A stretch of 64,000 nt of DNA, from the NCBI RefSeq assembly GCF_037975245.1, contig NC_092577.1, forward strand, positions 15,390,013 through 15,454,012, written 5' to 3'. Positions 13,180-62,910 of this stretch are shown here, in pieces. The translations under genes and the position numbers were made by a program. The number at the start of each line of letters is the position of its first letter. Positions within the stretch are counted from its first letter, which is position 1. Under the pieces are notes generated by a model. It was not told the origin of the DNA. It worked only from the letters and a program-made list of their open reading frames with translations, and made no database searches. This stretch comes from Apostichopus japonicus. Its lineage: Eukaryota; Echinodermata; Holothuroidea; Aspidochirotida; Stichopodidae.

Positions 13180-13198
13180 GAGAGGGCAATGGGCAAAA

Positions 13199-14374: not shown

Positions 14375-14598
14375 GATACCGAAGGTGGCCAGGCCACAGA
14401 GGAGTAACAAAAACAAACTATAAAGACAGGTTTAAACTTAAAACGATATACGATAACTATATACGACAAACGCACACACCCGCCTGGCGGGAAGTATAGC
14501 ACAGTACAGTACAGTAAGGTAAGGTAAGAAAATAGCTGTATCAGATGGAGAGCGAGAGCGAAACACGTCTGCACTCCACGAAAGCCAACTTTCGTTTT
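14375..14598 (-). promoter_or_regulatory. LINE 5' UTR / internal promoter region
   Basis: About 220 nt between the inferred 5' end and ORF1. It contains a perfect palindrome, CCCGCC-T-GGCGGG, at 14479-14491, and short TTACC/TACTG microrepeats. LINE 5' UTRs normally hold the internal Pol II promoter. Nothing here proves promoter activity. Confidence 0.5.
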
Positions 14599-17814: not shown

Positions 17815-17820
17815 GTTCTG
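17815..17820. repeat. 6-bp target duplication of giant element, left
   Basis: GTTCTG, identical to 41264-41269, immediately outside the terminal inverted repeat. Confidence 0.85.
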
Positions 17821-18090
17821 TATGAAGTGCCATATGTGACAATATTATATACCATATATATTGATTATAACGAGTAATATATATTGGTTATGCAGTAATA
17901 TATATGACTTATGTTTGTTCTTCATATATATACGTTATGCATAACCTATATATATTTCATATCATATATATATCGCATAACATATATTGTTCGTTATAAC
18001 CTTTATATATTATATACTATTTTGTCATGTTCGGCGCGGTTATATATATATAGATTATAAAAGTGTGAGTGGCACGCGAGTGGGAGGAGC
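17821..18090 (+). repeat. Left terminal inverted repeat of giant element
   Basis: Reverse complement of 40985-41263 with small indels only. It is AT-rich with many TATATATA runs, GTTATGC boxes and the palindrome GGTTATGCATAACC-like, ending at GTGGGAGGAGC. The repeated GTTATGC/TATATA words are candidate transposase-binding sites, and the end nearest the HECT start could serve as promoter. Confidence 0.9.
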
Positions 18091-18314
18091 CGTTATGCAA
18101 ATCGCGTTCGCGAGCACCATGTGTACGATCGGTAATGTTGATAAACTTTTTCGACGGAGCGCGGGCAAAAGGACTTGTATAGTATATATACTAGTGCTTC
18201 AGTATATACCTACACTGTAATGCAATAGAAGAATAGGGCAAAAGCCACGTTATCTGTCCGCAATACACTATCGAACCTTTCAACCACTGACCTATAACAC
18301 TCAGTGCTTTCAAC

Positions 18315-21300
18315 ATGTCGAATAACTTAACGGAAAGCGAGTTTTCTTCCTTGGTAAATAGGCTTGCTGAGCCTGTCGCAAGACAAGTAATGAGAGTGGT
18401 GGGAGATCGAGAGCGTCCAACAAACACTAACAGGTAGGCTTAGCCTAACAAATTGCATAACTGTACTGGAGAGTTAGCCCAACTGCAGTGTTAGTACCAA
18501 CTTATCTTAGGGGCCCCTAGGCTAGGCCTAGCCCTATAAGCCTAGGCTAGCTATGGTAAAGTGATATATAGCCTAACCAGTTAGCCTACGCTAGTGCTAG
18601 TCCATGACCTAACTACGGTACGTTACACAAAGCTTCATATAACTAGTATGATTAAGGTTTTTGTAACATACTGTAATTACTAAGTTAGGCCTAGGCTAGG
18701 CCCCTACAGGGCCCTAGGTCTTTGTAGACCTGAGGCGGAAGCACAAAATCACATTTAGGATAGGCCAAAAAAATCAGCTTTTCAAGAAAATTCTTCTCAA
18801 AATAGGAAAGCAAAACTGAATCAGGGTCCCAATTTATGACCAAGCCATCAGACTCATTATTTAATGAAAATACATTTTAAAAGGCCAAGAAGAAAATAAA
18901 ATTGTTACTTAAATTGTATCAAAGTTATTATACTTACATTATTATTTTTTTAAATTAAACTTTAATAGACTTTCACACTTTAGGACGATTGTATTTGTAC
19001 CCTGAAAGTGCAATTTTGTTTCCTTGTTTTGTATTTCATCGTTTACATGTGGGCAAATGGTACATGTAGGTCTTCACCTCTGTGCATGATGCGCGCATGT
19101 AGACACAAAATGTGCATGTATGCACAGGACAAATTTTGACTTGCACAAGAATATAACTGATACCAAATTCATGTAGGGCTGAATCTACATGCACTATGCA
19201 TGTGGGTCAACATAACTTTGAAACAGTTTGTGAGAAAAATGCTAAATCGATCAGGAAGATACTTAATAAGGGTATGAACTCAATATATTATATATAATAT
19301 AATTCAATGTATTCTACACTCATTAATATAATATGTGACAAGACAGTTATCAGAAAGAGACATTATCTTATCAGATTTCACAAATACATAATTATACACG
19401 TTAGGCAGCAATCTTGCAAATGAAAATGGAAAAGAAATTATTTCCCCAAATGGTTAACTACAAAAAAACATTGTTCACAATTAAGTGACACATGACATAC
19501 CTTTCATAGTTTTTTTAATTTACATAATGCTCTTTTGAAATTCATTGTAGGAATGTGTTTCAGACTGCCCATGAGGAAATGCGGAACCTGTTCCGTTTTG
19601 GTGGTCGAGGGCAAGGACGTGGGCAGGCTCCGGCTAGGAGAGGATCATCTAGCAGAGGGACCAATCAAAGGTATCGCCCATATACCCAACAGGCATCAGC
19701 TGGGAAAGCTATTGATGTTGTCCTCCTTTTGACCCCAAATGAGTAAGTTTGACCTTCCTTCAATGTTGAATCACACTAAATTTCACTGTGCACATATGCC
19801 TAAGTAAAAAATTATTATAGATTACCTGTATTATGTAAATTCCTGAGTGCTCAATTTTTCATAGGGTTTTAAACATGGTATGATTTATTTTTGGTAGTGA
19901 CACAGGCAGACTACATCAGGGCCCACAGTGGGGGGGGGGTGAGGATTTTTTTCAAGATCAATTTAACAACCTTGGCAAATACTTAGATAATCATCACATA
20001 TATCAGACCCTACAAAACATGACTCTGACAATTCAAAAAGTGGGCGACATACTTGCCTTGGCCACAATGAATCTATGCAATCATGTTGGTATGTGCGGAC
20101 ATGTAGGGTAATAACGTCCGAGGCCTTGTACAAAGGAAGTTCTTGGAAGTAATACAGTACAATGTGATTTTCAACTTTCAAGTCATTAGAAGACAAAGGT
20201 TAGGGTATTGTCAATTTTACGTCTATTAGGTTAGGATAAAGGAAATTTCAATGAAGTCCTCGCACTGAATGTAATGGACACCTGTGTTTGTGTGTGATGC
20301 CAAGCTTGTAACCACGTTATCTCAGCAGTCCCAAGTTGGATTAATATCTTACTTGGTACATATGTTAGCCATATTGAGTAGATGATTCCTATTGATTTTG
20401 AAATAGGTCAAATGTCATATGAGGTCAATAAGGGTCAAACACTGAAAACCTTGTAACCAGGTTATCTTAGCAGTCCCAAGTGGGATTATTCTTACTCTTG
20501 GTACAAATGTTACCCATATTAGTAGAGTAGGTGAACCCTAATGATTTTATAAGAGTTCAAAGGTCATTTGAGGTTAACATGGGTAATTTGCTGAAAACCT
20601 TGTAATCAGGCTAGCTCAGTAGAGGAAACCTGGATGAAACTCGTAGTTAGTATGTAGGTCACCCATATTGGGGAGATGAATCCTATTGATTTTATAAGAG
20701 GTTAAAGGTCACTTGATGTAAGCATGGGTCAATAGCTGAAAACCTTGTAATCGGGCTAACTCTATATGGGAAACTTTATGAAACTCATAGTAGTTATGTA
20801 GGTCACCCATGTAGGTTTCTCAGAGTAGGGGAAACCTAAAATATATAATTTGGACAGAAAGGAGTTTAAAGCAATTTCATCATCAGAATTTTCAATTCAA
20901 GCAAGGAATCACAAAACCTTTTGGTTTTTTTATAGCAATTATATGCATGCAGTGTTCTCCACGAGGGGTTTTAGGGGGCGGCCCACCCAAGTGAAAATTG
21001 CCACCCCCAGAAATAGTTACAGCCCCTAAAAAAATCATGCCCCCTAAAAATAATCTGCCCCCTGAAAATTTGAAATGTTCCAGAATGTTTAATAAGATGT
21101 TTGTTATCAGTTATTGCACAAATTTTTCCTAAGTACCAAATTTTCATCATTCCACTGAGTTTCTATTGATTTGCTAAGAAGAGAAATGATCTCTGATGTA
21201 TTAGGACTGTCAATTTCCGTTTAATTTTCTATCCGTTTAAACGGTACAAATGAACGTTCGTTTAATGTTTAAACGGTATCCAATTCCGCGATGTTTGTCC

Positions 21301-24300
21301 ATAAACTTAACTTAATGTTACAGATACAATACACAAATAATGTAATAGTAAACTGTATATGGTGCACAAGTATGTATGCCTACGGTACAGTATCTACATG
21401 ATGCCTTGCACGATGTACACATGAGATTTCAAAATAAAAAAGGTTTCGAAGCAAAGCCTGGGAATTAAGTGTCATTTCCCGTGATCTAGCTAGGAGGTTT
21501 TTTTTGCAAAATGTTCTTGTATATTTGTGGAGAACACTGGCATGCCTAACGTTAGTGCCTTAGACACAAATAGTTACTTATAAGTAGCGTATAAATTGAC
21601 CATTTTGTGATGCATAGAAATCTGCTAGCCTATATACACCGTGGCTAAAATTAGCCGAATTAATACGTCTGGATTATTTTGTCGGTTACCGACGGGTATG
21701 GTCCAGGGTATCTTGGTCCGATTTTTCTCCCCGGTGCATATACATATAGGCTATGTACGTACATACATATTCTACTCTACAGATCCTCAACAATTAGAGG
21801 ACAGAACAGAGCAAGGCTGCATGAAATAGGATGCATTATTGATAAGTTCTTTTTCCACAAGTCATGGCAATCTGAAGAAGTAACAAGGAGGCTCCAAGAT
21901 GCTTTTGCTGATAGACTGAATGATGGATCTTCCATGAGGTAAATTATATGAAATATGCAGGGTTATAGGCAAGGAATCTGTGAGTGGCGGTTGATTTTTC
22001 GGGAGTGGCAGTCATATTGACACCCATTCATTTTACAGTACATTCATTTTAAAACACTGTTTACCAAATTTTGTACCAGTCGATGGGAAGCTATATCTTC
22101 TAACTTCCCTATCCCCACGGAAATAACTCATTTTGACGATTACAAGTATAGATCAATATGTTAGTTTATTATAATAGCATCAGAACCACTCTTGCACTTT
22201 TGCATATTTACATTCCGGATTTTGTCTCAAAGTTTTCAGATTCTAAAGCCTGAGGGGCAAACCTTGGTAGTTCCAAGATTAGCACAAGGAGAAAAAATGT
22301 CTGGAGCAAAGGTTTGTGACATTTTTGCTCAGAAAACCATGTACCTGCGCCCAGAGAGAAGGATATCTGTAGATACCTCGGTATGTATATTTCCTTTCAT
22401 ATATTAGGGGCAATTGGGAATTCAGTTAGCCGTGGAGGTTAATTTGCATGGGATAGGTGCTGTTATATCATGGGATAGTCAGCTATCCCCCAATATGAAA
22501 TAGCAAAATATTAACAAAATATTTATTAAACAAAATGACAAAAATAGAGACATTTTCATTAGTCACCTTGCTTAATTAAGGAAATATGTCAAATGTCATG
22601 TACCTGATGTTTCACTATACTTTAACCTCCCCAGAAACCCACAATGTGTAATAGAGCATCATGGGAAGGTGCTGTATTACAATCATTTTGTAACAACCAG
22701 CATTACAAATTGCTCATTATGACAATGTGCAAGAACATCAGAGCCTACAACTAGTCATAAACTACATTAAAAATATATTATTAAGTATATTTAAACAGAT
22801 AGGCATGATTTTATCACAGAAATTACATACCTAACATTTGAAACCTAAACTTGGCATAGATCTAGACTTAGCTATATACAGTAGTAGGCCTACTAAGCAT
22901 ATTAAGTGACCATTTTGGCTAGTCGACAATTGGCTGAATTTGACAAAATTTATATACAGATAGATAACTGTATTCCCTACCTACATATGTCAAATGGTTA
23001 TATTTCGAAATCTCATATTCATAGTATGAGGGGGGGGGGGTTTGGGCATTGGAGGGGGGGCGGTTAGAAATTTACATTATAGTTTTACCTGGCCACATTG
23101 TTTAACAAATAGGTGTGGCATCATTTATATTAGGCCTATAAATTATTACTGGCCAAAAAGTAAAACACTTCTTTTATTTCGGGGGAAATTAAATGTATAT
23201 ATTTACAGACATGAGACAAAATGGGAAACGTCGATGACGGTAGCCTGAAGCAATACATTTTGGTCTTAGGGAAGCTGGACCAACTTCGGGGCCCATGACA
23301 CCTATCGGATACCGAGTTTTCGATGACATAATATTAGGGTCACATTCATGACTGATCATTTCAGTCTCGCATGCAGTCCACCTGTACGGCCTATACATCT
23401 ACAGATACTACCTTGATAGAGGATTCGGTGAAGTTAATCATGAAGTGAATGGGAGAGGTATCCAAATTAGCCTTTTGTCTTTGCTACACATCCCGATGGG
23501 GCTGTGGCCCCCTCTGACTTCCACCCCTACAGTGATTGGTGCTAAACACAACACATTTTGCACAAATTACATCCGAAGACAATACCAGCTGAAAGTAATA
23601 TATAACTGCACACAAAGCGCGCTGATAATTCGCAATGTTCCCTTTAAAACCGGACTCCAGTCCGGACTCGGGTCTGAGATATTAGTTAAATTTATTGCAG
23701 ACACTGGTCAATCGCTGCAGAAGCACTGAATATTTGACTGTTCTTTGGTTGGGTTGGGTTGTCCTAGATTTTAATCCAAGATTGCTTATGGTTTATATCT
23801 GGTGCTCCTTGATATATAGGATGAGGAAGATAATGACATGCCAGACCCGTTCTTAGGACCATCATCATCATCACCATCATTAGCACATGCATCCTCATCA
23901 TCTAGATCTGGTTTGAGGTCCACTGCCCCTCAAAGGACATCAGCATTGACATCAGTATCCACAGCACAATGTGCCCCTCCAACAGCAAGAGCTTGCCCGC
24001 AGTGCACCTTTCTTAACTCATCTAACACAGATTACTGTGAGATATGTATCAATTTGAAAACAGCTACTCTGATAATATATGCTTTTTCTTTCTCTCAATT
24101 TTTGCACAAATCCACATATATATGACTCTGCACTCTGATGAGTATATGTGGCTTCAAAATCAAATTCATAAAATTCCATATCCTTGCCACATATCTGGTT
24201 TAGGGATATATATTTGTATCATGTCCACTAGAAGTTTACATACTCTAACCCTTGAGCTAGTGCAGAATGGACTCATTGGACTGGGGATCATCTTTATTAA

Positions 24301-27300
24301 TTAGGAGGATTTGTTTTATGGGCTTTTGGATATTTTCTTAATCATAAATAAAATATGATCAAATAATTAATTACTTCATTGCTAGAATGGTCAGGCATCC
24401 AACCAGTGTATATGGATGGGTCAGGGTTAAAGTGTCATCCAGCAGGGGCGGTGCCCATCGGGGGCACAGGCCCCTCCCTGCAGCGGAGTGCCCCCCTCCC
24501 CGTCTCGGAAAAAATAGGGCCTTTATGCTTTACCGTATACAATGTGTACAATAACACTTTTTGTTGGGGAATTTGGCACCCACGCCGGGGAACTCGGGCC
24601 CCCTCTTCGGGAAAATCCTGGCGCCGCCCCTGTCATCCAGTGGAACTGGGCCATAACTACATCATATTGAGTTTTCAGCTTTTTATTTTTAATTTCAGCC
24701 ACTCTGTCTCCATCAGTCAGTTCTGACAGTCAGTCAGTCTGTCAGGTCCTGCCATCGTCAGGGGATGATCCTTCCCAGCAAAGTAGGAAACTGAAGAATC
24801 CAGCTTCACTGATACAAGACTTCATATCCCTCATTCACTTCAACAACAAACCTACAAACAACCTATATGTTCATAGAGATGAACTACTTAATGACAACAT
24901 TGCCTTCTTCAAGAATTGCAGGTTTGATGCTAAGAGTGGACATCAGAGTGCACTTTGAAGGAGAAGAAGGCATTGATGCTGGAGGACTTATCCGTGAAAA
25001 TTTTTGTATCTTCTTTCAAGAGGTCCAGTCACCGGAAAAAAACCTAGTAATATCAACGCCTACAGGAAAACTGCTTCCTTCAAACAATCAATTCCACACA
25101 TTCTCAGGGATGTACCAGGTGTTGGGGAAAGCGATTGGCACTGCACTTCTGAATGAAGTGTCAGTAGAAATTCCCTTACATAAGGCAGTGATTGCAGTCA
25201 TACTAAAGAAGACACAGGAAGAAATTTATGCACAGCTGCATAAAAATGACATAATCGACTTGAGCCTCCAAGATTTCATAACAGAGGTAATGAAAATAAT
25301 ACATGTAGGAAAACAATTTTGAACCAAATGTTGATTATATATGTACCAAATTTCATGTGGATTCAACAATGTTTGGTAATTTGACCTAAAATGAACCCTG
25401 GTGACATCCATATGACCTTCAAATTCCTTGCCATTGTGATCATTCTTGTTAAATCAGTCAATCATTGGTCAAAAGGTCCTAAATTGTTGAATTCCCCATT
25501 TTGTAGTTAAAATTTGCATTAACTGGCTATTTTTAAAATGAACATTTAATTAGTGTAGTGTAGTATTAATTAGTGACAATTAGCAGTCCATGCTTATAAT
25601 CCCCCCTCAAAAAAAAATGTGTAAACAAGGTTTCTAAGCTTCATTTGTAACTTATAATAAGTGTTATACAATTGCACCAAAACAATTCTTTAGTAATTGC
25701 TTTTCCAACTATATGTAGCCAATTTGTGTCTAGTCAGTGACGTAGAATGCATATAGGTTCGGATGGCTGGAGATCATTTATGTGCTGATACACCAAAACA
25801 AATTATTATGTGTGCATGATTTTTCAGATGATAGTTAAAAGAATATTCCAGAGGAAAACTGATGTTCAACTTTGTAATGATTATTCAGAATCAGGCAATA
25901 TCTGTGACATCACAATTGCACATTGAATCCAGAAAGCTTTCGTTTTTCTTAATTTAATGATTTTAAATTATCCATGGAAATAGAATATCCAAGTAACAAC
26001 TGTTGTAAAATACATTTGTAATAAAAATGTTATAAACTTTGGCATACCATTTCAAATTGGAATTAACAAAGACTTTTCCACAGCAAGTGAGCTGATGACA
26101 TCACAAAAGTGGCCACATACCTAACCAAAATGATTTTGCTCTCGACTATTTCATATGATAAAATTTATTAATGCATTTTTCCTAATTTGTTTTTTTTTTC
26201 TGTCCTTAAAGCTATTGGAAGAGACAGATGAGGACATGTTTCAGCAACTGTTGTCTGATGAGAGCAAGCCAACACACTGGCTTGACAGCTGTGGGTGGCC
26301 AGCTGCAAAGGCAATGAAGGTGAGTGTACCAATTTAGATTGGCATACATGGGCAATATCATTCAATGAAAGAGTGGTTTAGTTGATGAAGTAATTGGAAG
26401 AGCTTAAAAGCACAAAGTTTAGCATATAAGTCATGCAAAGGAGGACCTTGTGTAAGTTGTGTAGCTTGGAACATCCAGTGATTTTGACAGAAATATATGT
26501 CCATAGATATGTTCCAGGAAATTGACATGTTATGAATTTTATTAAAGCCTGTATTTTCAAAGTTAGGTCCTGTTTATGGTTTTCATGACAGTGTACATGC
26601 ATGACTATCACTAGTTTTAAAAATGTAGGTCAGGGCTAATTATGACTGCCACCCCCCCCCCAAAAAAATACAGTTGGCAAATCAGCTGTACACCAGAGAC
26701 ATTATGTATAAAAATCAGAAAGAAATCCCCACCACTCAAAAAATGACCTTATTAGGCCACTGACTACCATGGTTATGTTAGATGAGATTGTACACAATTA
26801 CAGGCTGATAAGTTAATTAGTTGTTTATTGTTTTGTACAGGTAGAAAACAAACATGACATAGCTCTTTGTCTCATGTTCCATTATACCATTGGGATAAGG
26901 AGGGATGCCATCGATGCCATGCAGAAGGGTCTCTTGGATTGCATTCCAGAGCTCCACATGGTTGATCTAGAAGCCTTTGCAGATCTCTAGGCTATCAGAC
27001 CAATCTTGGCCAAGGATTTGAAGATCATGGTGCAAGAAGCTTTGCAAAAGCTTGACAGACCTGCAGAGTCTGAAGGGTATCGGAGGACTGTCAGCTTTAT
27101 ATCCAGCTTCTTCACAGATTTGGGTAATTAATTACCTCTAATTATGACACTTCCAACATATCGTAAGGCTCAGTTATTTTGGTCTGGAAATTCAAGCTCA
27201 CTACATGTGCAGACTACATTTTTGGTTGCAATTCCAAAGGCCGAGTAACCTTTGCAACCCTGTCGGTATGTTTGTATTATATATTAATATTCGTGAGTGG

Positions 27301-29630
27301 GTGGGGCTTAATGCTTAATCCCTCAAAGTAGTTTGTAAACATGGAATTGTAGAAACAATATGATGAACTACTGTCATATTTAATTGTTAGGTGCTCCATG
27401 ATTAGATGTGCCCTATTTTTTTGTTTTCCATGACATGAATATTAATGAGTGGCAGGACAGTCAAATTCTTAAAATGTCAGTATTTTGCTATTGCATGTCC
27501 AATTTACTTCATACTTTGTCGTGTGATGTTAGATGATCATCGATGAGAGATCCTCATTAATATTCATGAATGCATTATTAATGCTAAATTTATCAGAATG
27601 GCCTGTAAACATAAAAGAAGTATATTGAATTTATGTCAACTTGAACTGGTAGATGTCCCAAGATATGCCGTATAGTTGTCTATGCCATGAATAATTGTTA
27701 GCGGGCGGGCTAAAATGTCAATATCTTTGCGAATGTATGTCTGATCAGCTTCATCCTTGGTATGGTGATAGATGATGAGATGTTCATTGGCACATGACAA
27801 TGGAATTCCTCACCTCTCTCCAATGTTCAGGTATGTCAGATAACTAATAAAATTTCACCAATGGCATTGGAACCACTAAATCTTTTGGTTTTCTGGTCAA
27901 ATACATTCATATTCAAAATTATATGAAATGCAAGGTTTAAAACAATGATGTGTTGCAATAGCCTTTCATGAGAAATTTGTATAAACAGACTGTCTGATGG
28001 CTTTTATATTGCCAACTTGGAAATACTTATGATATTACTTATTGATTCATACAAACACTTATTATTACATATTATACCCATGCCTTTAATACTCATTACA
28101 ACAGAATAATCATACGGATGATCTATACCACAAAATAGCCAGAGTGTCATTTGTCATACATCAAACATGATATACCTGTATATTTTCATCAGAATTTGAA
28201 ATATTTTTATATAAAATATATATTATGAGGATGCTTGGCTTAATACTTAACCACTGGAAATAGCTAGAGATTACAAGTACAGATCAATATGATTTATGGT
28301 TACCATACTTGATATTTGTATTGACAGTACTTGACTACTAATCCATCATTTTTTTAGTTTTTTATTCAGTGCCTCATAGATATTAATTAAGTAGGATATT
28401 TATACAGTTCTATTAGTAAAATTTTAGTAAGGCTCAGGGACCTTTGTGATCATGTATGTGTGTTTGTCACTCGAGAACAGGCTCGGCCAGCTGGTCTTGA
28501 TGACAGTATCTATCAGCAACTGGCTTTTTGATCCTTGCCTTGGCTGCAAGGAATCTATGCAATCACGTTGGCGTGTGTGGACGTGTTTTGCAGCAGGTCC
28601 GAGGACTTGAACAAAGGAATTCCAAGTCCTTGGAAGACAAATTCAATAGAAACAAAAGGTCTTAGGACGTTCGGACAATGGTAAGGGTATTGTCAGGTTA
28701 GGGCGCGGACAAAGCAAATTACAATGGAGTCCTCAGACATAGTGTAAAACCCACCTGTATGCGTAAATGTGTGTGTGTGTGTATGGACATGTAGGGTCAT
28801 AACGTCCGAGGACTTGAACAAAGGAATTTCAAGTCCTCGGAAGACAAACAAAGGTTAGGGTTTTGTCAATGTGAGGGTCTATGAGGTTAGGATAAAGGTA
28901 ATTTAAATGAAGTCCTCTGACTGAATGTAATGTACACCTGTGTGTGTGTGTCATGTGTGTGTGTGACACCAAGCTTGTAACCACGTTATCTCAGCAGTCC
29001 CAAGTTGGATTAATCTTATTCCTCGTACATATGTTGCTTGTTATGTCTTAAGAGTTGTCTGGTGAATGTGCTTGACTTGAATTGACTACCTCACTGTTGT
29101 GTGTAAACATGTGACAGCTTGCCAGTCTTGACAGGCAGATGCATCATGTTGTATAGGTGTGGTGTGGACCTATTGGTTTCATTTGCAATATAATGCATAT
29201 TAGCTTACAGTATTGAAAACTTTGCAAAAAGGCTAATGATAACACTTTTTCATATTTTATGGCATTGGAACCACTAAACATTTTGGGGTTTATGATTGTA
29301 TAGTATTCACAAAAATATACTTATCATAGCCTGATCAATAAAATGTATTTATGATTCCCATTGGTTCATAACAAAAAATATATGTTCTATTTTTTAGATG
29401 ACACAGACGCACATATTCTTGCAAAGTTTGCAACTGGCAGCCCTTCATTCTCCCCTGACCAGAAGCTAACAATTGCTGTTAACACCTTACGTCCTGAGGA
29501 GGTTTCACCCATCGCCAATACTTGTCAGTGTTCAATCATGTTTCCTCAGGGCCATACCACCTATGCCTCTTTCAAAACAACAGTACTGGACAGGATGGCA
29601 CAGACTGGTGATTATTTTGGGAGGTTTTGA
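18315..29630 (+). CDS. HECT-type E3 ubiquitin ligase with RanBP2 zinc finger (transposon-borne)
   Basis: Nine exons join with consistent phase: 18315-18433, 19551-19742, 21783-21938, 22233-22380, 23820-24045, 24699-25286, 26212-26319, 26841-27123 and 29398-29630. The order is a short N-terminus (MSNNLTESEFSSLV), an RG-rich stretch, a domain with FQILKPEG and MYLRPERR, an acidic/Ser-rich linker, a RanBP2-type finger (CPQCTFLNS...YCEIC) and the HECT domain (EEGIDAGGLIREN, catalytic Cys in ANTCQCS, C-terminal GRF). HECT ligases take ubiquitin on the Cys and pass it to substrates. Two breaks are seen: a +1 shift near 24931-24937 and an in-frame TAG at 26988-26990. This copy is therefore probably non-functional unless these are assembly errors. 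Resemblance to G2E3-like HECT families is from memory. Confidence 0.82.
18434..19550. other. HECT gene intron 1
   Basis: GTAGGC donor and TTGTAG acceptor. AT-rich; includes a CCTAGGC-rich stretch (18500-18720) and ATGCACA microrepeats near 19080. No feature supported. Confidence 0.6.
20040..20350 (+). repeat. Dispersed repeat shared with 28540-29030
   Basis: Shares GGACATGTAGGGT, AACGTCCGAGG, GAATGTAATG and ACCACGTTATCTCAGCAGTC with 28540-29030, same orientation. Non-coding, in HECT intron 2. Confidence 0.8.
20305..20815 (+). repeat. ~147-bp tandem repeat, about 4 copies
   Basis: Degenerate head-to-tail units each opening CTTGTAA(C/T)C, then TCCCAAGT-type or GGAAAC-type words, CCCATATTG, CTATTGATTTTATAAGAGGT and GGTCAATA...CTGAAAAC. 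Lies in HECT intron 2. Confidence 0.75.
20950..21539. mobile_element. 590-bp non-autonomous TIR transposon in HECT intron 2
   Basis: Starts CAGTGTTCTCCACGAGG and ends TTGTGGAGAACACTG, a 14/15 terminal inverted repeat, with a 5-bp duplication GCATG on both sides (20945-20949 and 21540-21544). The interior has GCCCCCTAAAAA-type repeats and no ORF. A second family member lies inverted at 39870-39983. The superfamily is not assigned. Confidence 0.8.
23820..24045 (+). CDS. HECT gene exon 5: Ser-rich linker and RanBP2-type zinc finger
   Basis: Opens DEEDNDMPDPFLGP after an ATATATAG acceptor, runs through a Ser-rich linker and ends in CPQCTFLNSSNTDYCEIC. The C-x2-C-T-F-x-N...C-x2-C pattern is the RanBP2/NZF finger, which typically binds ubiquitin or RNA. 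The only usable GT donor (24046) falls inside the last Cys codon, so splicing to 24699 would change that Cys to Ser. Either the real donor differs or this copy has lost the fourth zinc ligand. Confidence 0.7.
24443..24632. mobile_element. 190-bp MITE with 8-bp target duplication (hAT-like)
   Basis: Ends CAGGGGCGGTGCC and GGCGCCGCCCCTG (12/13 inverted match), flanked by an exact 8-bp duplication TCATCCAG at 24435-24442 and 24633-24640. Eight-base duplications and CAGGGG ends are typical of hAT MITEs. No ORF. Sits in HECT intron 5. Confidence 0.88.
24699..25286 (+). CDS. HECT gene exon 6: HECT N-lobe
   Basis: From a TTTCAG acceptor the frame reads TLSPSVSSDSQS...NNLYVHRDELLND and, after a one-base shift near 24931-24937, VDIRVHFEGEEGIDAGG, LIRENFCIFFQEV, HTFSGMYQVLGKAIGTAL to DFITE and a GTAATG donor. 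GE-x-G-x-D-x-GG and the (G/M)xxxGKAI motif mark the HECT N-lobe that binds the E2 enzyme. The shift is not in a homopolymer. Confidence 0.85.
25287..26211. other. HECT gene intron 6
   Basis: GTAATG donor and CCTTAAAG acceptor. AT-rich, no feature supported. Confidence 0.55.
26841..27123 (+). CDS. HECT gene exon 8 with in-frame stop
   Basis: Begins VENKHDIALCLMFHYTIG after a TTGTACAG acceptor and ends at a GTAATT donor in phase with exon 9. Codon 50 is TAG (26988-26990) within AFADL-stop-AIRPIL. The frame is open on both sides, so this is a single nonsense change in the HECT domain. Confidence 0.8.
27124..29397. other. HECT gene intron 8 with repeats
   Basis: A 2.3-kb intron. Includes several TATTAATATTC(A/G)TGA microrepeats (27280-27570) and the dispersed repeat at 28540-29030, with TGTG microsatellites near 28770 and 28940. 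Confidence 0.55.
28540..29030 (+). repeat. Dispersed repeat shared with 20040-20350
   Basis: The unit TGTAGGGTCATAACGTCCGAGGACTTG is present one and a half times (about 28575 and 28795), followed by the CTTGTAACCACGTTATCTC block also found at 20305. Non-coding. Confidence 0.75.
29398..29630 (+). CDS. HECT gene exon 9: HECT C-lobe with catalytic Cys
   Basis: Starts after a TTTTTAG acceptor (DDTDAHILAKFATG), with SPDQKLTIAV, PIANTCQCSIMFPQ and DRMAQTGDYFGRF, then TGA. The Thr-Cys pair in NTC is the thioester site of HECT ligases, and the short aromatic tail matches the usual C-terminus. Confidence 0.88.
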
Positions 29631-32600: not shown

Positions 32601-32937
32601 AAGTGGTATGCCAAAGTTTGTAATATATATGAAAAATGCATTATGCATCAGTTGTTACCTTGGTATTCTTTTTCTATGGATAAATTATTTCTAGAAAAAA
32701 AATCACTAATTAAATTATCAAGAAAATCAAAAGCTTATGGATTCAGTATGCAACTGATGTCACAAATGTTGCCAGATTCTTAATGAAATTGAAAATGTGA
32801 ACTTATTTGAAACATTCATATCTTAGCAACTAGAAATGGGACTTTCACCACCGAGTGTAGTTTACTTCGTCCTCATTCTCATCACTATTCTTTTAACATT
32901 TCACTTTTTGTTATGCATAGCTTAGAGTGCTATGCAT
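29631..32937. other. Region between the converging genes; no gene assigned
   Basis: AT-rich. A 97-residue plus-strand frame at 31256-31549 has a TCTGTAG acceptor (31332) and a GTAAAT donor (31514) around LRQVDFFMRASRFSEQLAQQ..., but I do not recognise it. Two degenerate ~130-bp units occur near 30200-30460. Nothing else supported. Confidence 0.4.
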
Positions 32938-32940
32938 TAG

Positions 32941-34592
32941 GGCGATTCCATGCAAACAGGGACATGACCCCAAAAATGAAAGAATCCTTTCTGACCCAAT
33001 ATATTGCTTTTGGTTCATGCTAAGGTATTCAGGGTCCAGATCAGAAACTTTTTCCTAGCATACAGTGTCATTTTACCACAAAAAAGTGCAGTGATAGCTG
33101 ACTGTGATTCTGCAATTAAAATGCAAGTGAGTCTGTGTGGATTTTTCAAAGTCCCATATTCCCTTGTATGAAAGTAACTTGTACAAGTGTGAAATATTTA
33201 TGAGTAATACAAAATATGATATTTTAAAATCACATCACATTGCCCATTCACCATTTTTGGCTTGTAGGTATATTGCTGTAGTTAAAAGGCGTCTATGTTG
33301 ACATGTAATGCGAGTTCCTGGGCAATCAAGATTTTAACATTATTGCTCTCCTGGAGGCGATAATTTTCTGCCATTCCATATTTTGCTTTTTGGCCCAAGT
33401 ACTGAGTTTAACAATAATCAAAGGAATAGAAAGTCCATGCATATTTTGATATGAAGGGCCACTGAAAGCCGTAATGCGAGTTACCGGTAATGCAAGTTAA
33501 CAGTGCTGTAATGCGATCGAGTAACCACTGTAATGCCAGTTGTCATACTGAAAATAACTGAATATTGCCTTATGACAAAGAATGCAAAACCTTTGATCCA
33601 TGATGCTGAATGATAAAACAAGTTGAAAAACCCTATTCCAGCTTTAGCTAACATTTAAATTGTGTGTGAATCATTGGAAATGAACATTGTCATCATTGTT
33701 CATCACATATTTTAATTTGGCCAGCAATTATTAGTAAAATTATTGACAGAGGTATAAGTATTGTTGTTTATTTGTTGCTACAATGCTTTTAGACTTCTAC
33801 AATGGTTCTTCAGAGCAAATAATTCTCCAGAATTTGATGAAGATGAAAATACTGACTGGGCAATTTGTAATGCAAGGTACCTTAATGTGAGTTACCAGAT
33901 TCTTCCCCCCCTCCCAACCACTTCTAAGTTGTTTTATATTTTCTTGTGCTACAATGTAATCTTCAGGATATAGTAGATATCTAGTACATACATTCAATTG
34001 AACAAAACATTGTTTGTTTGACTAAACTAGTATCTCCATTTTTGCTGTGTACTTTTTGTGTAATGCGAGTTATCGATTTTGTTTATCCCCCTGTCATGAA
34101 CTACTTTTTGATAAATTTTTGGTTATTTAACTTTACATATAATGTAAGTCACCTTCCACTAGAAATAATAGTTTCAGCATTTTATTTTCCATTTAGATTT
34201 CATTGATGACTGGACAAAGTGAAATGCGAGTTACCGTTATGCGAGTTACCGGATTATTTCCCCTTCCACACCACATCTTAAGTTGTTTCATATCATTTAG
34301 TAGTTTGATGTAAACACCAGTGGAATAGATATCTACTACATACATTCAACTGGATACAACATCTTTTGTTTGAGCAAACAACTGCATTGAACTTGCATGA
34401 ATTTTTTATGTGTCCTTTTTGGGTAATGCGAGTTACTGATTTTCTCAAGAGCACCATACATAAGACAAAGCAGTGCCATCACCCCGAATAATTTTAGATC
34501 ATTGCTTTGAGTGTTTGCTTTAATACCACAAATAATCAACCTGCAATAAAAAAAAATTGAAAAAGTGTAATGCGATTTACCGTGGAATCACC
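32941..34592. mobile_element. Non-autonomous element with repeated TAATGCGAGTTACC boxes
   Basis: Ends GGCGATTCCA (32941-32950) and TGGAATCACC (34583-34592) are near-perfect inverted repeats. Inside, TAATGCGAGTTACC or close variants recur at about 33306, 33472, 33520, 33888, 34060, 34222, 34237, 34423 and 34568. A ~355-bp unit (about 33880 and 34236) is duplicated in tandem. No ORF is convincing. The repeated boxes look like subterminal transposase-binding sites. The class is not assigned. Confidence 0.55.
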
Positions 34593-34603
34593 TATTAGCA
34601 ATA

Positions 34604-35395
34604 TTAATTGTGGACATTGCATTCTGTAACAAATGACCGAGTGTTCAGGTACAATTGATATCCATGACTTCCATCATTCTCGAGTGGATTAACAGTGTTC
34701 CTTAGTCTGGCAATCTGATCATCAGAAAGTAGTGACTCAGTTTCTGGAACTTGTACTCCATCTTCTGTTTCATTCATAGGTGCATCTCCATCAGGGTCAA
34801 TCCCATACAACTCCCACTGTTCATTACTATCAAACACACTCTCTACTCCAGTATAATCTGAATGAAACAGCCGAAAACACCTTGGTGGAACAGTTGATTT
34901 GGGGACTGATTATGACATGAACTAAGGGGGTGGTTGTTGTACTGAAGTACAAATTCTGCTAGAGCCCTATTGATTCGTGGTATGAAAACAAACTGAAGTG
35001 ATGAAAGATCAATTTCATTCAATGGATCTAGAACTTGATCATCCTGCATGGCCATAAAAACATTTTTGAAGTAACGGACAACCTTTACATTCACATCCCT
35101 CCATAACCTCTCTATGCGCTGGTTATGCACGCTCCTCCCTGTTATCATACTTCCTCTGTTTAGCCCTCGTCTTGCAAGCATAAACTGTGCCACATCATAG
35201 TTTTCAACACCCAAGTCTGACCTGACGTGGGAGGGGACACCATAGAGATTAACAGCTTCCTGAAATAAACTAAGGACTGTTTGGGCACGATTATTGTTGG
35301 TACACCTGAGATACACTACCCGTCTGCTGTATCCATCGATCCCACCATGGATGACCAACCGCCATGGAATTAATTTATGGTTACCATCAATATGC
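34604..35395 (-). CDS. Transposase exon 4: catalytic DDE core and C-terminus
   Basis: After a TTCACAG acceptor: HIDGNHK (first Asp), IHGGIDGYSRRVVYL, VRSDLGVEN (second Asp), HNQRIERLWRDV (Glu). The last two acidic residues are 34 apart by direct count, close to the DD35E of IS3 and retroviral integrases. The tail reads VESVFDSNEQWELYGIDPDG and ends TRSFVTECNVHN. A one-base shift separates QLFHQGVF from the tail frame near 34885. Confidence 0.88.
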
Positions 35396-38300
35396 CTGTG
35401 AAGGGGAAACAGTAAAAGATAATGGTGCAAATCCACTCAGAACCATAAACAACTTGCATTTTCAGGCTGAAGGTAAAGCATTGCTTTGTTTTGTTCACAT
35501 TTTATTGTGAGTTCCTGATCATGTTTGCATTCTGATAATAAAGAACCAGAATGAAACCCAAGGATCATTGCATCCATGTTTCACTAAAATCCATGAAAGA
35601 CTATGCTATGATAATGCTCTTCTTACAAAGAAATCACTTCATAACCTTTGACCTCAAATTACTGAACACCCCAAAGGTACCACTAACTCAATGATCATAA
35701 TGTGTTACTTTCGACATAATTTATTAATAACTCTGTGAGAAGAAGCATTTTAAGAATTTTCAGGTAATGCCCTTAAATAATCCCTACAGTAAATGACCTA
35801 CATCACCCCTGATTCCCCCTCATCCAATGAACATTGTGTCCAAGGTTCCTCAAAATCCATCAAAGCCTGTACGAGAAGAACAATTTTGAACAAGTATCAA
35901 CAGACGGATACTGTAGATGCAGCTTGATCATATAGGCACGATCATATGTATATATGTGACATAGTTTATTTTTAAAACTTGCATTTCAGGCTGAAGGTAA
36001 AGCATTGCTTTGTTTGTTCACATTTTATTGTGAGTTCCTGATCATGTTTGCATTCTGATAATAAAGATAATAAAATATTGAGTAGGCCTATATTATATAT
36101 AAAAGTATATATATTAAGCAAAATGAATATTAATGAGAACACATTTCATTTTCGACTTTAACACAACGATAGCAAACTGTATGATTACTTACGGCATGGT
36201 AAAAACTATGTCACATACATTTGATCATGATACATTCATGATACATCTACCTGTGAAGAATGACTTGATACGTGCTACCCATTCATTAATGTTCAGGTAA
36301 AGAAACACCATATGGTACATCTACACATGGCACAACTACCTGTCATTGATCTAACATATCAATAACTGGGTTAATAAATCAAACATGTCATTGGGGATAC
36401 ACTGTGTTAACGAGCCAGCCGTCACATACACACACCTTTGGCTTTCGCGTTGTAACCAAAACTAAAAAAAAAATCTCCAAGCTTATTAATATCTGCTGTG
36501 ATGATACACTTCACCTTCTTGCCATATTCTCAAGTGGAAATAACAATTTGGAAAATTAAAATTATATCAGAAAATCTTAATAGACAATTTCAGATTTTGT
36601 GTTTACAAGCTATTTTGTGTGGTTCACAAATAATGTCATCCCATTCTAAAGTAAAAAAAAATGGTGTCACTTATGAAGTTGATACAGTTACAAAGATATT
36701 GACATCTTAAGAATTGTATTTTAAGCCCAGACCACTCATTAATATTTATGATTTGGATACCAAGAACAAAGCACATCTACTCCATAAGTGTCATGTACCA
36801 GTCCAATATTATATTAACATGCCATTTTTGAGATGTTGTGTTTATGAGCTATTTGTGTGGCATTAGCTATTTTGTTTGGCATTAAGCACCCACTCATTAA
36901 TAATGAAACAAAATTTAGTGAAACTTACGAGTGAGCTTTCACACACCACACACATACACACAGTCACTTTTGGAAATGCAAAATCCCTGGTTCCCACCAC
37001 CCAACATACATAACACTCCTGACCGAGTCTATATATGTCTACATAAATATAGTCTGTCCACACGCAAAAACGACCTCAAAATCAAATCTATTTGTCTGTC
37101 CACATTTGTTCAGCATGCTTCTCCTCAATGGAGTTTGACCAAACTTGAACACAATGTTTATTTGATGAGGGGACATCAGGGGTATTCCAAAGTTACACAT
37201 TTTAATCATTGAGTAAATTGGTGCATGTGCAGTTTTTAGCGATTTGAGGTCACATGTCATAAAATGGAAAATAGCATTGATCTTTTGTTTTTTTTTATGG
37301 ATTTTTTAGTGTAACACAAATGCAATGATCATTAGGTGTTGAAACATAAGTGGTGTCCATACATTTCGGGTCAGAGGTCATTTAGGGGTTATTTGAGATC
37401 ATTATCTGAAAATGCACACCAACTTTAACACATTGCTAGAAGTGAATTTGTTACAAATGAACTCTGACCACTTCATTTCAGCCATGAATATGAAATGTAA
37501 CTTGTGATAAATGAACAAATATTTGTAAGAGCCACTGCACCATTGGTGCACTAGTTGGAATATGCAATAATAAAAGTGATTACCTACATGCATCTTGATC
37601 TTCAAAAGAACAACAAATTCCGGAAAGTATGCAATGCTAGTTGGGTAAGATCCCTCAAACCCACCCAAATTGAGGTTTATTACCACAAATCTGTTGATAA
37701 CATGCGTGTAGGGGATCTCGAGGATTAGTATGTCTGTACATGCACATTACATGAAACATTTCATTAGCAACAGTACTGTACATACTCACACATAATACAG
37801 CAATGCAAGTGTTACTGTATAGCTGCCTAACGATTGCTTACCATAAATGATTTGGGCAAGGAACATGGTATGTCCCACGACAAATTGCATATGATCTTCT
37901 GAGCAATCTACTGATGGGATCCACTCGAGAAATGGACTGTCTCAACCGCCATCTTTGAGTTCTTACTCCTCGTCCAGTCAAAGCTCCAATGACATATCTT
38001 TCACCTTTAAAAATGGAAATATTAAATTCATCAGATACTAACTACTATAAACTACAGTATATGGGTATGAATATCAAATTTTTATGTAGAGATACTGTAC
38101 ACCCTCATCAGTCACAGTCTTGGATGATATACTTTTTTATTACAACAATTCATCACTGTTAACAAACCTGTACATTTTGCAACAAACCGGTGTTGTTTTG
38201 TTTTAGCAGTCTTTATTAATATCATCACAAAACAGTTTATTTTTTATCATGTTTTAATGCCAGTGCATAAATTGAAAATTGTCATGGATAGCTACAGTAC

Positions 38301-40890
38301 CATTACATCCAACAAACAGCTTTAAAGATATGCTATAATCTGCTTAAAATGGTCAAATTATGTGAAATGTATTTCTTTAGTTTCAATAGATTTCTTTGGT
38401 CAGTTATACTTTCAGTAGTGTAAGACTGTATGATTGTTCTTCCTTATCCTTGCATCAGTCTGGTGTTAATGAACAAGCACACAAAATGCACTCTGGAATG
38501 GTGTTGGGCCAATTATCAGTATACAGTATCGGTATCGATTGATATTGTCATTATCTGCCTCATATCGGTATCTGTGAAATTTGTGTCAATTGCTGATAAC
38601 ACCCTACCGATATCACAAGCAATTTTATACAAACAGTTCATCTGTGAGTAAATTTTACTTCATCCATTTGCCGTAAAAATTCAACTGGCATTTGTTCACA
38701 TACAGTATTCAATATCTATAACAACGTTATCTTAAACATAGCAATAGCTCGGTAACTTTACCAAATCACACTAAATGTGGCCCGACAAATACAAACACTG
38801 CCGCAATGCAAACACTGTTTTGTCTTTCTCTTTTTCGTTTTAGCATCCCATCAAGTTGATGGATGATACATAGAATCAAGGAAAATGTCTCTGAAAAAAA
38901 AAAGTCTTGAATTCCATTTGGGCAGATATTTGGCTTTAGATCACTCATCCATTAACATACACAATATTTAACCTACATGTACACTATAACAAAATTTACA
39001 TTGCACTCAGGAATTTCCCCAATCTATGTTTTTCTATGACTTGAGCAAGTAAAAATTCCAATGACCAAATCATCATGTGGCTTTGTGAGTTTGTGTACAG
39101 TAGTTAACGTCAGTGTCTATAGGCCTAACGTGAGGTAAACAGTGGTTTGCATGTCACTAATTGCGATCACAAATAAAACATTTATTATAAAAAAAATCAG
39201 TAAAAAGAACTTATACAGTTCCGTACAATTTGACAGTAGTACAGTACAGACCTTTAATCAGAACAAGAGTACCAACTGTCACTGATTCCTTATCTTAAAG
39301 GGGAAGGTCTTCATGTGTAATAGACAATGTATTATGTATATTTCTCTGATCAACCCCCTTGCTTTGAATTGAATCAGACTAAGTGGTCAATACAAACATT
39401 TTCAACTGAAATGGTTACTATAGGTGATAAAACATTTTCAAATGAAATGCTTAATAAAACTGAAGAGTACTGTCACATTTTGTACTGTCACATTAGATAG
39501 ATTACATTTGGACTTTACCTGCATCTGGTGAGATTTGTAATATCAAGATCATCATCTGTGATTTGACTATAGCCGCTTCCAAGGTGTGTAGGCATCTGGA
39601 ACTCATGTCTTCTTCGAAGAACGGTTCTATATGATATATTCAGTGTTGAAGCCACTTGTTTCCAAGATCCAAGAACGTGATAATGTTCTTCCAACTGTGG
39701 CATGGTCAAGCAAAACCTAAATAGAAATAAGGATTTGTAATTCAATGAATACTAATAGTTAAACTATACATACATGTATGTACTTTTTGCACACATTTTG
39801 ACAGCCAAATGTTTGGGCAATGACATAAACAAAGATAAATGCAAAATGTGACATTTTGAGATTGTCTAGAGGGGAGGGATTTTTTAAGAGGGGCGGCAGC
39901 TATTTTCAGGGGGGCCCGGGCGGGTGCAGCAATTTTCACTTGGGTGGCATGCGACCACCCAAAAACCCTTCATGGAGAACACTGTATAGGGAATAATTTG
40001 AACAGTGCTGGCCATTTTGGGAATTGATAAAAGCTGATAAAACACATGATTGCCCACAATCCAAAGTTGATTTGAATGTGCTGCAGTTGTTAATTAATGG
40101 GGGTTCTCCGCTTCAGGTTGTTCGGCACGGCTGTTGCACAGTGGTGACGGGCAAGTTGCTTCCACCTCCCCAGACTTTGAGAAAGTGGTCGAAGTATGGG
40201 GTACTCTCACGTCCATGGGATGGGGACGTTAAATGGCGGTCCAGGGAGCAGGATGGGTTCACGCCTGTCTCGTTATCATCTGAGCACTTGGTCGTGAAGA
40301 GAAGGCTGAAAAGCCGGTGTTCATCCACAATCATACCTGGCAGTCTGGGTTATCTGTGTGTGGTACAGGGTCGTTCATGAGGACAAATGTCCTTCCTGAC
40401 CCTTGATCTACTAAACTAAACTAGGCCTAACTGTTCGGCCTAGGTCCTAATGTTAGGCCAATGCTACACAGCTACATTATATAGGCCTAGCCAAGGCGAA
40501 GGGCCATGCCCGGATTAATCTCTCAAGTCTTATAGTCTTACCGTGGTCGGCCAGCATCACCTTGGATCGTCGAACACTGAAAACTGTAGTCAATATCGTC
40601 GTCAGCCTCTCCACTGTAGCCGGTTTGCAAATTTTCTAAAGCTCCAAGGAGCTGCTGTAAGCCACTTACAAGCATCAAATTAGCTTCATCTCCTGGAACG
40701 GGCAGATGTTGAAGGTAATCTAGCGAAACACGTACCAAATGTATCGCAGATTCAACCCTCCTTGTACGATATGTGCTCTTTGCGCGTCTGCCGTATTTTG
40801 CAAACGAATTGCTTCACTATAGATGTTTGGGAGCTCAGAAAAGGCGTCTAAATAACTATTTTGTTGAAGATCCATCACTTGTTGAACCAT
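34604..40890 (-). CDS. Integrase-type (rve/DDE) transposase, four exons
   Basis: Minus-strand exons 40542-40890, 39519-39716, 37842-37997 and 34604-35395 join in phase. The start is the ATG at 40890 (MVQQVMDLQQ), about 370 bp inside the right terminus. Exon 1 ends GDAGRPR. Exon 2 carries a helix-turn-helix (VLGSWKQVASTLNISYRTVLRRR). Exon 3 has RGVRTQRWRLRQSISRVDP. Exon 4 is the catalytic core. It belongs to a widespread animal family I recall as paired with repeats. It would cut and join the element ends. One-base losses near 40790 (exon 1) and 34885 (exon 4, T4 where T5 restores the frame) break the frame; both can be explained by homopolymer miscounts. Confidence 0.85.
35396..37841. other. 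Transposase intron 3 with a 90-bp direct repeat
   Basis: GTAAGC donor at 37840-37841 and TTCACAG acceptor. It holds a nearly identical direct repeat at 35453-35543 and 35977-36066 (CAGGCTGAAGGTAAAGCATT at the start, ATAATAAAGA at the end). The rest is AT-rich with no supported feature. Confidence 0.6.
37842..37997 (-). CDS. Transposase exon 3
   Basis: Acceptor GTGAAAG at 37998-38004, donor GTAAGC. Encodes YVIGALTGRGVRTQRWRLRQ, ISRVDPISRLLRRSY and TYHVPCPNHLW, the linker joining HTH and DDE core. Its last two bases complete the Trp codon with exon 4. Confidence 0.8.
38005..39518. other. Transposase intron 2; no feature
   Basis: AT-rich intron; short frames on the plus strand look fortuitous. 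GTATCGG microrepeats near 38520-38590. Confidence 0.5.
39519..39716 (-). CDS. Transposase exon 2: helix-turn-helix
   Basis: TATTTAG acceptor and GTAAAG donor. FCLTMPQLEEHYHVLGSWKQ, then STLNISYRTVLRRRHEF, then SQITDDDLDITNL. The segment has the form of an HTH that would bind the terminal repeats. Confidence 0.8.
39870..39983 (-). mobile_element. Fragment of the CAGTGTTCTCC MITE family
   Basis: Ends CATGGAGAACACTG on the plus strand and contains CACTTGGGTGG, matching the start of the 20950 element in reverse. The left end was not found. Lies in transposase intron 1. Confidence 0.6.
40030..40400 (+). repeat. Possible SINE or LINE-tail repeat in transposase intron 1
   Basis: A GC-richer block (TGGGGACGTTAAATGGCGGTCC, GTGGTACAGGGTCGTTCATG, TTGATCTACTAAACTAAAC) unlike its AT-rich surroundings. 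Composition and tail suggest a retroposed element, but no boundaries or internal promoter boxes could be confirmed. The overlapping 118-residue frame is probably fortuitous. Confidence 0.35.
40542..40890 (-). CDS. Transposase exon 1
   Basis: Starts MVQQVMDLQQNSYLDAFSEL; after a one-base loss it continues YGRRAKSTYRTRRVESAI and SLDYLQHLPVPGDEANL to GDAGRPR at a GTAAGA donor. The length of 349 nt needs one more base to reach the phase required by exon 2. Confidence 0.75.
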
Positions 40891-40984
40891 AGAAATTTAT
40901 CCTAATCAATTTCTATGTGTTGAACACATTGACATGTACCTAGGCTTTATGCGGCGCGAATGTTCAAATAATCAAGGCAATTAA

Positions 40985-41263
40985 GCTCCTCCCACTCGCG
41001 CGTGTCACTCACACTTTTATAATCTATATATATATAACCGCGCCGAACATGACAAAATAGTATAAAATATATAAAGGTTATGACGAACAATATATATATA
41101 TGTTATGCGATATATATATGATATGCAATATATATAAGGTTATGCATAACGTATATATATGAAGAACACACATAAGTCATATATATTACTGCATAACCAA
41201 TATATATTACTCGTTATAATCAATATATATGGTATATAATATTGTCACATATGGCACTTGATA
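40985..41263 (-). repeat. Right terminal inverted repeat of giant element
   Basis: Reverse complement of 17821-18090, ending ATGGCACTTGATA. Differences are small TA-run length changes and a few substitutions. Confidence 0.9.
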
Positions 41264-41269
41264 GTTCTG
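41264..41269. repeat. 6-bp target duplication of giant element, right
   Basis: GTTCTG, identical to 17815-17820. Confidence 0.85.
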
Positions 41270-46241: not shown

Positions 46242-46379
46242 CAACGACCCGACGGGACGGCGACCGCTCCTCCGCTAGACCGCCGTTCGCCGCCCGGCCC
46301 CTAGGGGTGCCCACCTCACCGCGGCAATTCCGCAGGTGGGGGGGGGAGACTATCACTTTTCACCCAGCAATGGGAAACT

Positions 46380-47970: not shown

Positions 47971-48170
47971 GCCAGGTCAGGTCCTGAGAAAGATCCGTCA
48001 CTCCAGGGGGAGAGTCATACTGGTAGCCCCATTCTGGCCCCGCAGACCATGGTTCGGGGAAATCCTACAACTTCTAATGGACACCTCAGCGATCCTACCG
48101 GACACGCCTCACCTGCTGTCCCAAAGACGGGGGACCCTCAACCAACCATCAAAGGGCTACAATTAGTTGC

Positions 48171-62418: not shown

Positions 62419-62910
62419 GGTAAACCTGTCTCAGTTTAGGATACTACGAGTTAGGAGGAATATTTTGAAGCAACTTGTCTGACGACGAAGCCATCCAATG
62501 TAGTATTAACCTACAGTAGATAGGATATTTCTTGTTAAGCAGTGGGTTTCAAGCACGCTACCGTACTCGATTATTTCTTATCTATTTAGAAATATATCCC
62601 AGCAATGATAGATAAAAGTCTCACAAGTTTACAACGCGTTAAGAATTAGTTTAGTCTTGCATTATGATCGACTTAAAAATAAATTGACCGCACAAATCAG
62701 TATGCTCAAATAATGTGTCTCAAACCCTTGTTAATATGAAATCAATTAAACTACCGCGCCAATCATTGACCAAAGTCAGGCGGGCAATCGCAATGAAAGG
62801 GGCTTGGTACTACAATAACAGGACCGACACTATTGTTTCCGCGATAATTACAATGATTACCCACCAATCTAAAGCCATCACTTGTAAGTTCTACATCTAT
62901 ATATCAACAC

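Follow-up and report, generated by a model that had tools for sequence, protein, structure and literature searches.

Why should a cut-and-paste transposon carry a gene for a ubiquitin ligase? The question is raised by a 23-kb unit in the sea cucumber Apostichopus japonicus, located at positions 17,821 to 41,263 of a 64,000-nucleotide stretch of contig NC_092577.1 (this whole stretch is referred to below as the window). Within this unit, a gene for an integrase-like transposase and a gene for a HECT ubiquitin ligase point toward each other between long inverted termini. On balance, we consider it probable that the unit is a young two-gene transposon of the IS3EU kind to whose function the HECT gene contributes, being predicted to encode an active E3 ligase directed against a protein that limits the element. 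The first-pass annotation of the window had already proposed a cut-and-paste mobile unit resembling IS3EU with a HECT partner, and this proposal is now backed by additional copies, target-site duplications, the form of the ends, and the rva_4 core of the transposase.

The boundaries of the unit are formed by four features, listed here with window coordinates.

17815..17820, no strand: left target-site duplication, GTTCTG (same 6-mer at 41264-41269)
17821..18090, + strand: left terminal inverted repeat, begins TATGAAGTGCC (self-comparison, assembly matches, arm alignment)
40985..41263, - strand: right terminal inverted repeat, ends CACTTGATA (self-comparison, copy ends, arm alignment)
41264..41269, no strand: right target-site duplication, GTTCTG (same 6-mer at 17815-17820)

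The main ungapped pieces of the two terminal arms are 97-98% complementary, and the figure is 94.6% over 279 aligned columns when gaps are included. An inverted repeat so long and so well matched lies far outside what chance would give, and copies elsewhere in the assembly confirm it. The inverted termini of ~275 bp, the TAT ends, and the perfect 6-bp duplication GTTCTG claimed at the outset are all present in the arm alignment and the flanks. The two genes do converge within one unit, with the transposase on the minus strand and the HECT gene on the plus strand. The further claim that both begin just inside the termini holds for the transposase, whose likely start lies ~95 bp in, but is not confirmed for the HECT gene, whose first visible segment is at 19552.

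When the first 300 bases of the element were used to search the assembly, at least 81 matches to the termini were found (a lower bound, because 40 of 68 candidates were scored). Manual grouping placed these at no fewer than 24 loci, comprising 16 close relatives and eight at 71-80% identity. Twelve of the 16 close loci were examined, the window copy included. Exact, adjacent 6-bp duplications flank ten of these 12 copies, and all ten 6-mers are different. Among the remainder, E5 has a clipped 3' end and a 6-mer (ACGAAC) displaced one base outward, and N4 is a 5'-truncated copy. The left end reads TATGAAG in every copy except the truncated N4 (11/12). The right end reads CTTCATA in nine copies; the exceptions are the window (CTTGATA), E2 (CTTCGTA), and E5, where it is clipped.

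Three further long copies, E2, E3, and E4, span 28.2, 41.5, and 37.0 kb on contigs C17, C20, and C17, respectively. They are collinear with the window unit over almost its full length, with internal insertions and some missing pieces. Their divergence from the window copy is 1.2, 2.1, and 1.8%, and from one another 2.2-2.5% (one repeat-rich stretch excluded). Because the long copies differ by only 1.2-2.5%, the family was mobile recently. Both genes are found in all four long copies, counting that of the window. No transposase was seen in any of the eight short copies, and E5 alone among them keeps a stretch from early on the HECT side. The 12 copies examined thus show what is commonly seen when full elements are accompanied by deletion derivatives. 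The expectation of many copies, with intact ones holding both genes, was borne out as to gene content but not as to integrity, because none of the four long copies has an unbroken transposase. Termini without the HECT gene, which the first-pass annotation regarded as evidence against such a unit, occur in eight of the 12 copies, but these copies lack the transposase as well, as deletion derivatives do.

The transposase gene of the window copy consists of four exons.

40542..40890, - strand: exon 1; a single base short at 40760 relative to E2 and E3 (comparison with copies)
39518..39717, - strand: exon 2, helix-turn-helix; without 17 bases present in E2 and E4 (HTH_23 E 0.0029, below cut-off)
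37842..38004, - strand: exon 3, ERYVIGAL..NHL (comparison with relatives)
34604..35395, - strand: exon 4, encodes the rva_4 integrase core plus the C-terminal part; shifted in frame near 34878 (PF24764 E 1.2e-75)

The rva_4 model (PF24764) matches positions 34846-35436 on the minus strand with an E value of 1.2e-75. Residues D187, D227, and E264 (P0002 numbering) are invariant in 16 aligned proteins that include the window core. We read these residues as the probable catalytic triad and the rva_4 domain as the likely core of IS3EU. An HHCC motif ahead of the core is not expected in IS3EU; in that region of the window transposase there is a weak helix-turn-helix match (HTH_23, below cut-off), and no search was aimed at HHCC. 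Compared with its relatives, the window transposase is one base short in exon 1, lacks 17 bases of exon 2, and is frame-shifted in exon 4. The core exon is split between two frames in the window, E2, and E4, and contains a stop in E3. Another protein, P0001, shares 99% identity with the window transposase across 52% of the query; its source is labeled 'lgn', with contigs of at most 1018 bp. A scan of viral contigs with a 16-row transposase alignment gave 33 pattern matches, none of which encoded a relative, and so added no locus of any other species.

The HECT gene runs in the opposite direction and is divided into the following segments.

19552..19737, + strand: first identifiable coding segment, RG-rich, then AIDVVLLLTP (reading by eye, approximate limits)
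21787..21939, + strand: N-terminal coding segment (reading by eye, approximate limits)
23820..24047, + strand: segment with weak RanBP2-type zinc finger (PF00641 E 0.042, below cut-off)
24700..24941, + strand: linker, then first part of the HECT domain (47.8% identity with L029 in 46 aligned columns)
24942..25283, + strand: HECT N-lobe exon (PF00632 27.4 bits for 24813-25319; UBE3A in PDB, E 5.6e-6)
26212..26314, + strand: HECT domain exon (48% identical to L029 exon over 50 columns)
26841..26987, + strand: HECT domain exon (59% identical to L029 exon over 32 columns)
29397..29630, + strand: HECT C-lobe exon with catalytic Cys codon 29523-29525 and stop (Thr-Cys in 12/12 rows; HUWE1 HTC aligned)

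The frame at 24813-25319 exceeds the curated HECT cut-off (27.4 versus 23.9 bits for PF00632), and translated 24942-25316 matches UBE3A in the PDB (E 5.6e-6). Nine HECT exons had been counted initially; eight coding segments are identifiable, with approximate limits. Similarly, a RanBP2 finger had been reported, and a match is present, but it is weak (E 0.042, 13.6 bits versus a cut-off of 27). Relative to E2, E3, and E4, the window gene is 23 bases short at 24048 and two bases short at 24941-24942. Both window genes thus have disrupted frames, which the first-pass annotation did not note, and this copy cannot be a working element.

Is the HECT gene a peculiarity of this one family? A search of the assembly for rva_4 gave at least 143 matches (150 of 224 candidates scored), which group into 81 loci. 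The corresponding search with the HECT Pfam model gave 96 matches (122 of 122 candidates scored), and the HECT collection comprises 62 loci, 58 from the Pfam model and four recovered with the window N-lobe exon as query. At 38 of the 81 rva_4 loci a convergent HECT locus lies no more than 30 kb away on the 3' side (34 with the Pfam model alone), compared with none downstream on the same strand and one upstream. Random placement within contigs, whose lengths were partly taken as the highest coordinate seen, produced 0.38 such pairs on average and never more than 3 in 1000 trials. Local shifting of HECT loci was added because 35 of the 81 rva_4 loci reside on contig C17. Shifts of up to 200 kb gave a mean of 2.3 and a maximum of eight convergent pairs (2000 trials), and shifts of up to 1 Mb gave a mean of 1.2 and a maximum of seven. 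When used alone, the window N-lobe exon found eight pieces at seven loci, every one of which is convergent with an rva_4 locus. The description of the HECT gene as an unusual, single partner therefore placed the emphasis wrongly, because in this genome it is a regular one. Another 24 of the 62 HECT loci fall outside this arrangement, and several of them have strong matches in multiple parts, like ordinary host genes. As a separate matter of distribution, the region from 15 to 28 Mb of contig C17 holds 33 of the 81 rva_4 loci in 13 Mb of a 671.6-Mb assembly.

Twenty rva_4 cores are open, meaning that they cover at least 170 positions without a stop. A HECT gene was found by search at 14 of these, and reading of the flanks adds L033 and L037 (decayed). 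Loci L030-L037 were picked among the transposase matches because their cores are long and open, at a time when the outcome of the HECT family search had not yet been seen; L029, L038, and L039 were picked with the HECT match already known. Seven of the eight loci chosen in advance have a convergent HECT domain, and the eighth, L036, has an N-terminal exon of the HECT-gene type that is 37% identical to the exon upstream of the L034 HECT. The HECT of L037 is decayed and has no Pfam match, and is 25% identical to that of L031 (E 2e-16). L032 is a near copy of L030, and both combine an unbroken HECT frame of 362 amino acids with an rva_4 core lacking stops. At L038, a distant rva_4 locus, the HECT domain resides in an open frame of 601 amino acids. 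Measured against the cut-off of 23.9, HECT scores are 27.4 bits for the window, 28.0 for L029, 45.3 for L030, 32.0 for L031, and 26.1 for L033. The occurrence of the same pairing at many related elements suggests that they make use of the host ubiquitin system.

Several smaller observations concern these related loci. A nameless N-terminal domain of HECT genes is common to L034:8838-9161 (- strand), L036:3192-3515 (+ strand), and P0124 (37% and 34% identity), the last being an A. japonicus HECT protein headed by this domain. Tandem units of ~161 bp occupy L030:4594-7433, between the HECT and transposase genes of the element on C16, and are far fewer in its sister copy on C1. The ends of the L030/L032 family of elements were sought and not resolved.

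A working ligase would be expected to retain the chemistry and fold of its class. Thr-Cys is invariant in all 12 aligned HECT rows, which represent nine loci of the genome and three relatives. The HECT profile matches HUWE1 with an E value of 3.4e-17, placing Thr-Cys opposite the HTC of that protein. A structural model of P0121, which is 68% identical to the L030 HECT, is mediocre, with a mean predicted local distance difference test (pLDDT) score of 62.8 and a predicted template modeling (pTM) score of 0.42. All fold matches listed for it (50 of 132) are HECT ligases, with TM scores of 0.25-0.40 by query. This model lends weak support to a HECT fold, by way of an L030-type relative rather than the window's own protein. 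For L030 and L032, the ratio of nonsynonymous to synonymous change (dN/dS) is 0.047 for HECT (6 synonymous changes, 1 other) and 0.27 for the transposase (5 and 5). For the window versus the three long copies, it is 0.34 for the HECT domain (9 and 11) and 0.51 for the transposase core (8 and 15). Synonymous sites are saturated in five deeper comparisons. It is suggested by these small counts, with one pair contrary, that the HECT domain may be under constraint.

How might such an element operate? Transposases of this kind bind and pair the termini, excise the element, and insert it with 6-bp staggered cuts. The HECT ligase would transfer ubiquitin via its catalytic cysteine to a protein that otherwise limits the element. 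Our first choice for this target would be a host factor that silences or restricts the element, and the second would be the transposase itself. We favor a host restriction factor because a selfish element gains most from its removal, and because TET/JBP genes of fungal IS3EU elements have been proposed, in the text of PMC12730594, to aid escape from methylation-based silencing. The window copy is now a broken passenger, which could move only with transposase supplied from elsewhere.

A number of observations weigh against this proposal. All locus-level evidence comes from one genome, in the form of this single assembly, and whether the ligase targets a host factor or the transposase is something we infer. 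None of the four long copies has an intact transposase when read against full-length relatives, and E4 has no sequence that aligns to exon 1. There is no HECT match at 43 of the 81 rva_4 loci, many of which are fragments, and among the 20 open cores, 17 of which had a HECT match by search or had their flanks read, L036 has the N-terminal exon only. The first three HECT segments, when pooled, have a dN/dS of 0.95 (6 synonymous changes, 18 other), which is no proof of coding, and the HECT genes of L034 and L039 give 1.27 (2 and 9). L038 is discordant, with the most distant transposase (23-29% identical) and a HECT that is 16-33% identical to the others. Finally, the HECT genes of the window and L029 are split by introns and share 16-21% identity with those of L030, L031, L033-L035, and L038, which have a single frame, and because of this a single common capture is not proven.

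The last point could be taken to mean that the position beside the transposase is a capture site, which HECT genes entered at least twice or where they were swapped, such that the single-exon type was captured separately from the type of the window and L029. In keeping with this possibility, the window transposase shares 35-45% identity with its counterparts at L030, L031, and L033-L035, the same loci minus L038, at which the HECT proteins are so much further apart. Moreover, in fungal TET+ IS3EU elements the gene lying opposite the transposase is one for an alpha-kinase, as described in the text of PMC12730594. Trees for the two proteins were compared at eight loci (window, L029, L030, L031, L033, L034, L035, and L038, with the decayed L037 left out), using a transposase alignment of 97 columns only, with branch supports of 31-73. 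Four of five splits are common to both trees, and 112 of 40320 label permutations give as many. In approximately unbiased (AU) tests, neither alignment rejects the tree of the other (0.305 and 0.302), and the distances of transposase and HECT are correlated (Mantel r 0.405, p 0.011). Congruent trees had been anticipated across species; congruence is seen among families within this one genome, and its scope is thus one species. These results are compatible with one history, and fast evolution could yield the same picture as separate captures, which we regard as somewhat unlikely. An earlier tree comparison (r 0.033, p 0.40), which had been listed against the two-gene proposal, used the wrong frame for the window transposase and included the decayed L037; it has been replaced.

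A second possibility is that the ligase acts on its own transposase, either destroying it after cutting or capping its level. Such a role would account, if indirectly, for the presence of both genes in one element and for the four common splits. Contact between the HECT and transposase proteins was not seen in the data here, and it can be argued that self-limitation benefits a selfish element less than escape from its host. We consider this role unlikely.

Transposons do catch host genes, and the HECT gene could be passive cargo that was caught by chance and never removed. Its absence from eight of the 12 copies examined and the dN/dS of 1.27 for L034/L039 would both fit. However, those eight short copies are also without the transposase, the same convergent partner is present at 38 of 81 loci, including L038 with its 23-29% identical transposase, and Thr-Cys is kept in every row. 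Passive cargo is quite improbable. Although contig C17 holds 35 of the 81 rva_4 loci, together with 15 of the 38 HECT loci that are paired, the notion that the two merely co-occur in repeat-rich regions is strongly disfavored by the bias in orientation (38 convergent versus 0 and 1, with local shifts reaching no more than eight) and by the location of both genes inside common termini in the long copies, and we give it almost no credence.

The window also contains features that lie outside the element. A non-LTR (long terminal repeat) retrotransposon at 9787-14431 (- strand) has a frame of 1145 amino acids that encodes an endonuclease and a reverse transcriptase (RVT_1 E 4.1e-31), as well as an upstream frame of 410 amino acids with zinc knuckles. 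By reading, a partial second copy of its 3' end is present at 2024-2860 (+ strand), where a zf-RVT match falls just below cut-off. A retroelement at 45249-48923 (+ strand) includes an RNase H match (RT_RNaseH E 1.1e-5), and its frame at 48078-48923, which has no Pfam match, is suspected to encode a DIRS-type recombinase. Tandem arrays at 4506-6912 and 42323-42902 have units of ~186-204 bp and 226 bp, respectively. A U2 snRNA match at 62907-62983 (+ strand; 51.4 bits versus 46) is probably an incomplete copy, because it covers 77 bases of a 192-position model.

If the two-gene proposal is true, a ubiquitin ligase of its own that has been retained over deep divergence would make this a rare cut-and-paste element that aims an enzyme at protein turnover. 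The question of which protein the ligase tags then becomes directly testable. There is also a warning for annotation, because HECT genes listed as uncharacterized in some cases belong to transposons. The case in point is A. japonicus protein P0127, which is 99% identical to the ligase of L038, where the HECT gene adjoins an rva_4 gene. A protein of the fish Oreochromis niloticus, P0131, shares 33% identity with the L038 HECT over 97% of the query.

The ligases resemble cellular HECT E3s such as HUWE1, UBE3A, AREL1, and NEDD4 in sequence signature, catalytic cysteine, and fold. They differ in being located inside a transposon and in being very divergent, down to 16% identity between element families. 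Among cellular ligases, G2E3 has been placed after the split of chordates and echinoderms in a text (PMC2837046) in which 'transpos' occurs 0 times. Literature searches, whose coverage excluded Repbase Reports, found no publication linking HECT with IS3EU elements. Thus, the combination of a known superfamily with a regular HECT partner was found nowhere described, and an earlier mention in Repbase Reports is possible.

IS3EU elements are described in PMC10045372 as having TA..TA termini and usually a 6-bp target duplication. The sea cucumber element is like them in its TA..TA ends, 6-bp duplications, and integrase-like core. It is unlike that description in its regular HECT partner, given that 'hect' and 'ubiquitin' occur 0 times in the main text of the paper. 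Another parallel is provided by fungal TET+ IS3EU elements, which, according to the text of PMC12730594, have an alpha-kinase gene opposite the transposase, a TET/JBP dioxygenase, and 6-bp duplications. A second enzyme gene opposite the transposase and 6-bp duplications are common to both. The ends differ, with TAYGG..CCRTA in the TET+ elements of rusts and TATGAAG..CTTCATA in the sea cucumber. The partners differ as well, with alpha-kinase and TET/JBP in the fungi and HECT here, and 'hect' and 'ubiquitin' again occur 0 times in the main text of PMC12730594. From this comparison we venture, tentatively and at less than even confidence, that animal IS3EU may be an ancient two-gene system whose own HECT E3 would eliminate silencing or restricting factors of the host, and that the superfamily, with the alpha-kinase and TET genes of its fungal members, may be a general carrier of counter-defense enzymes.

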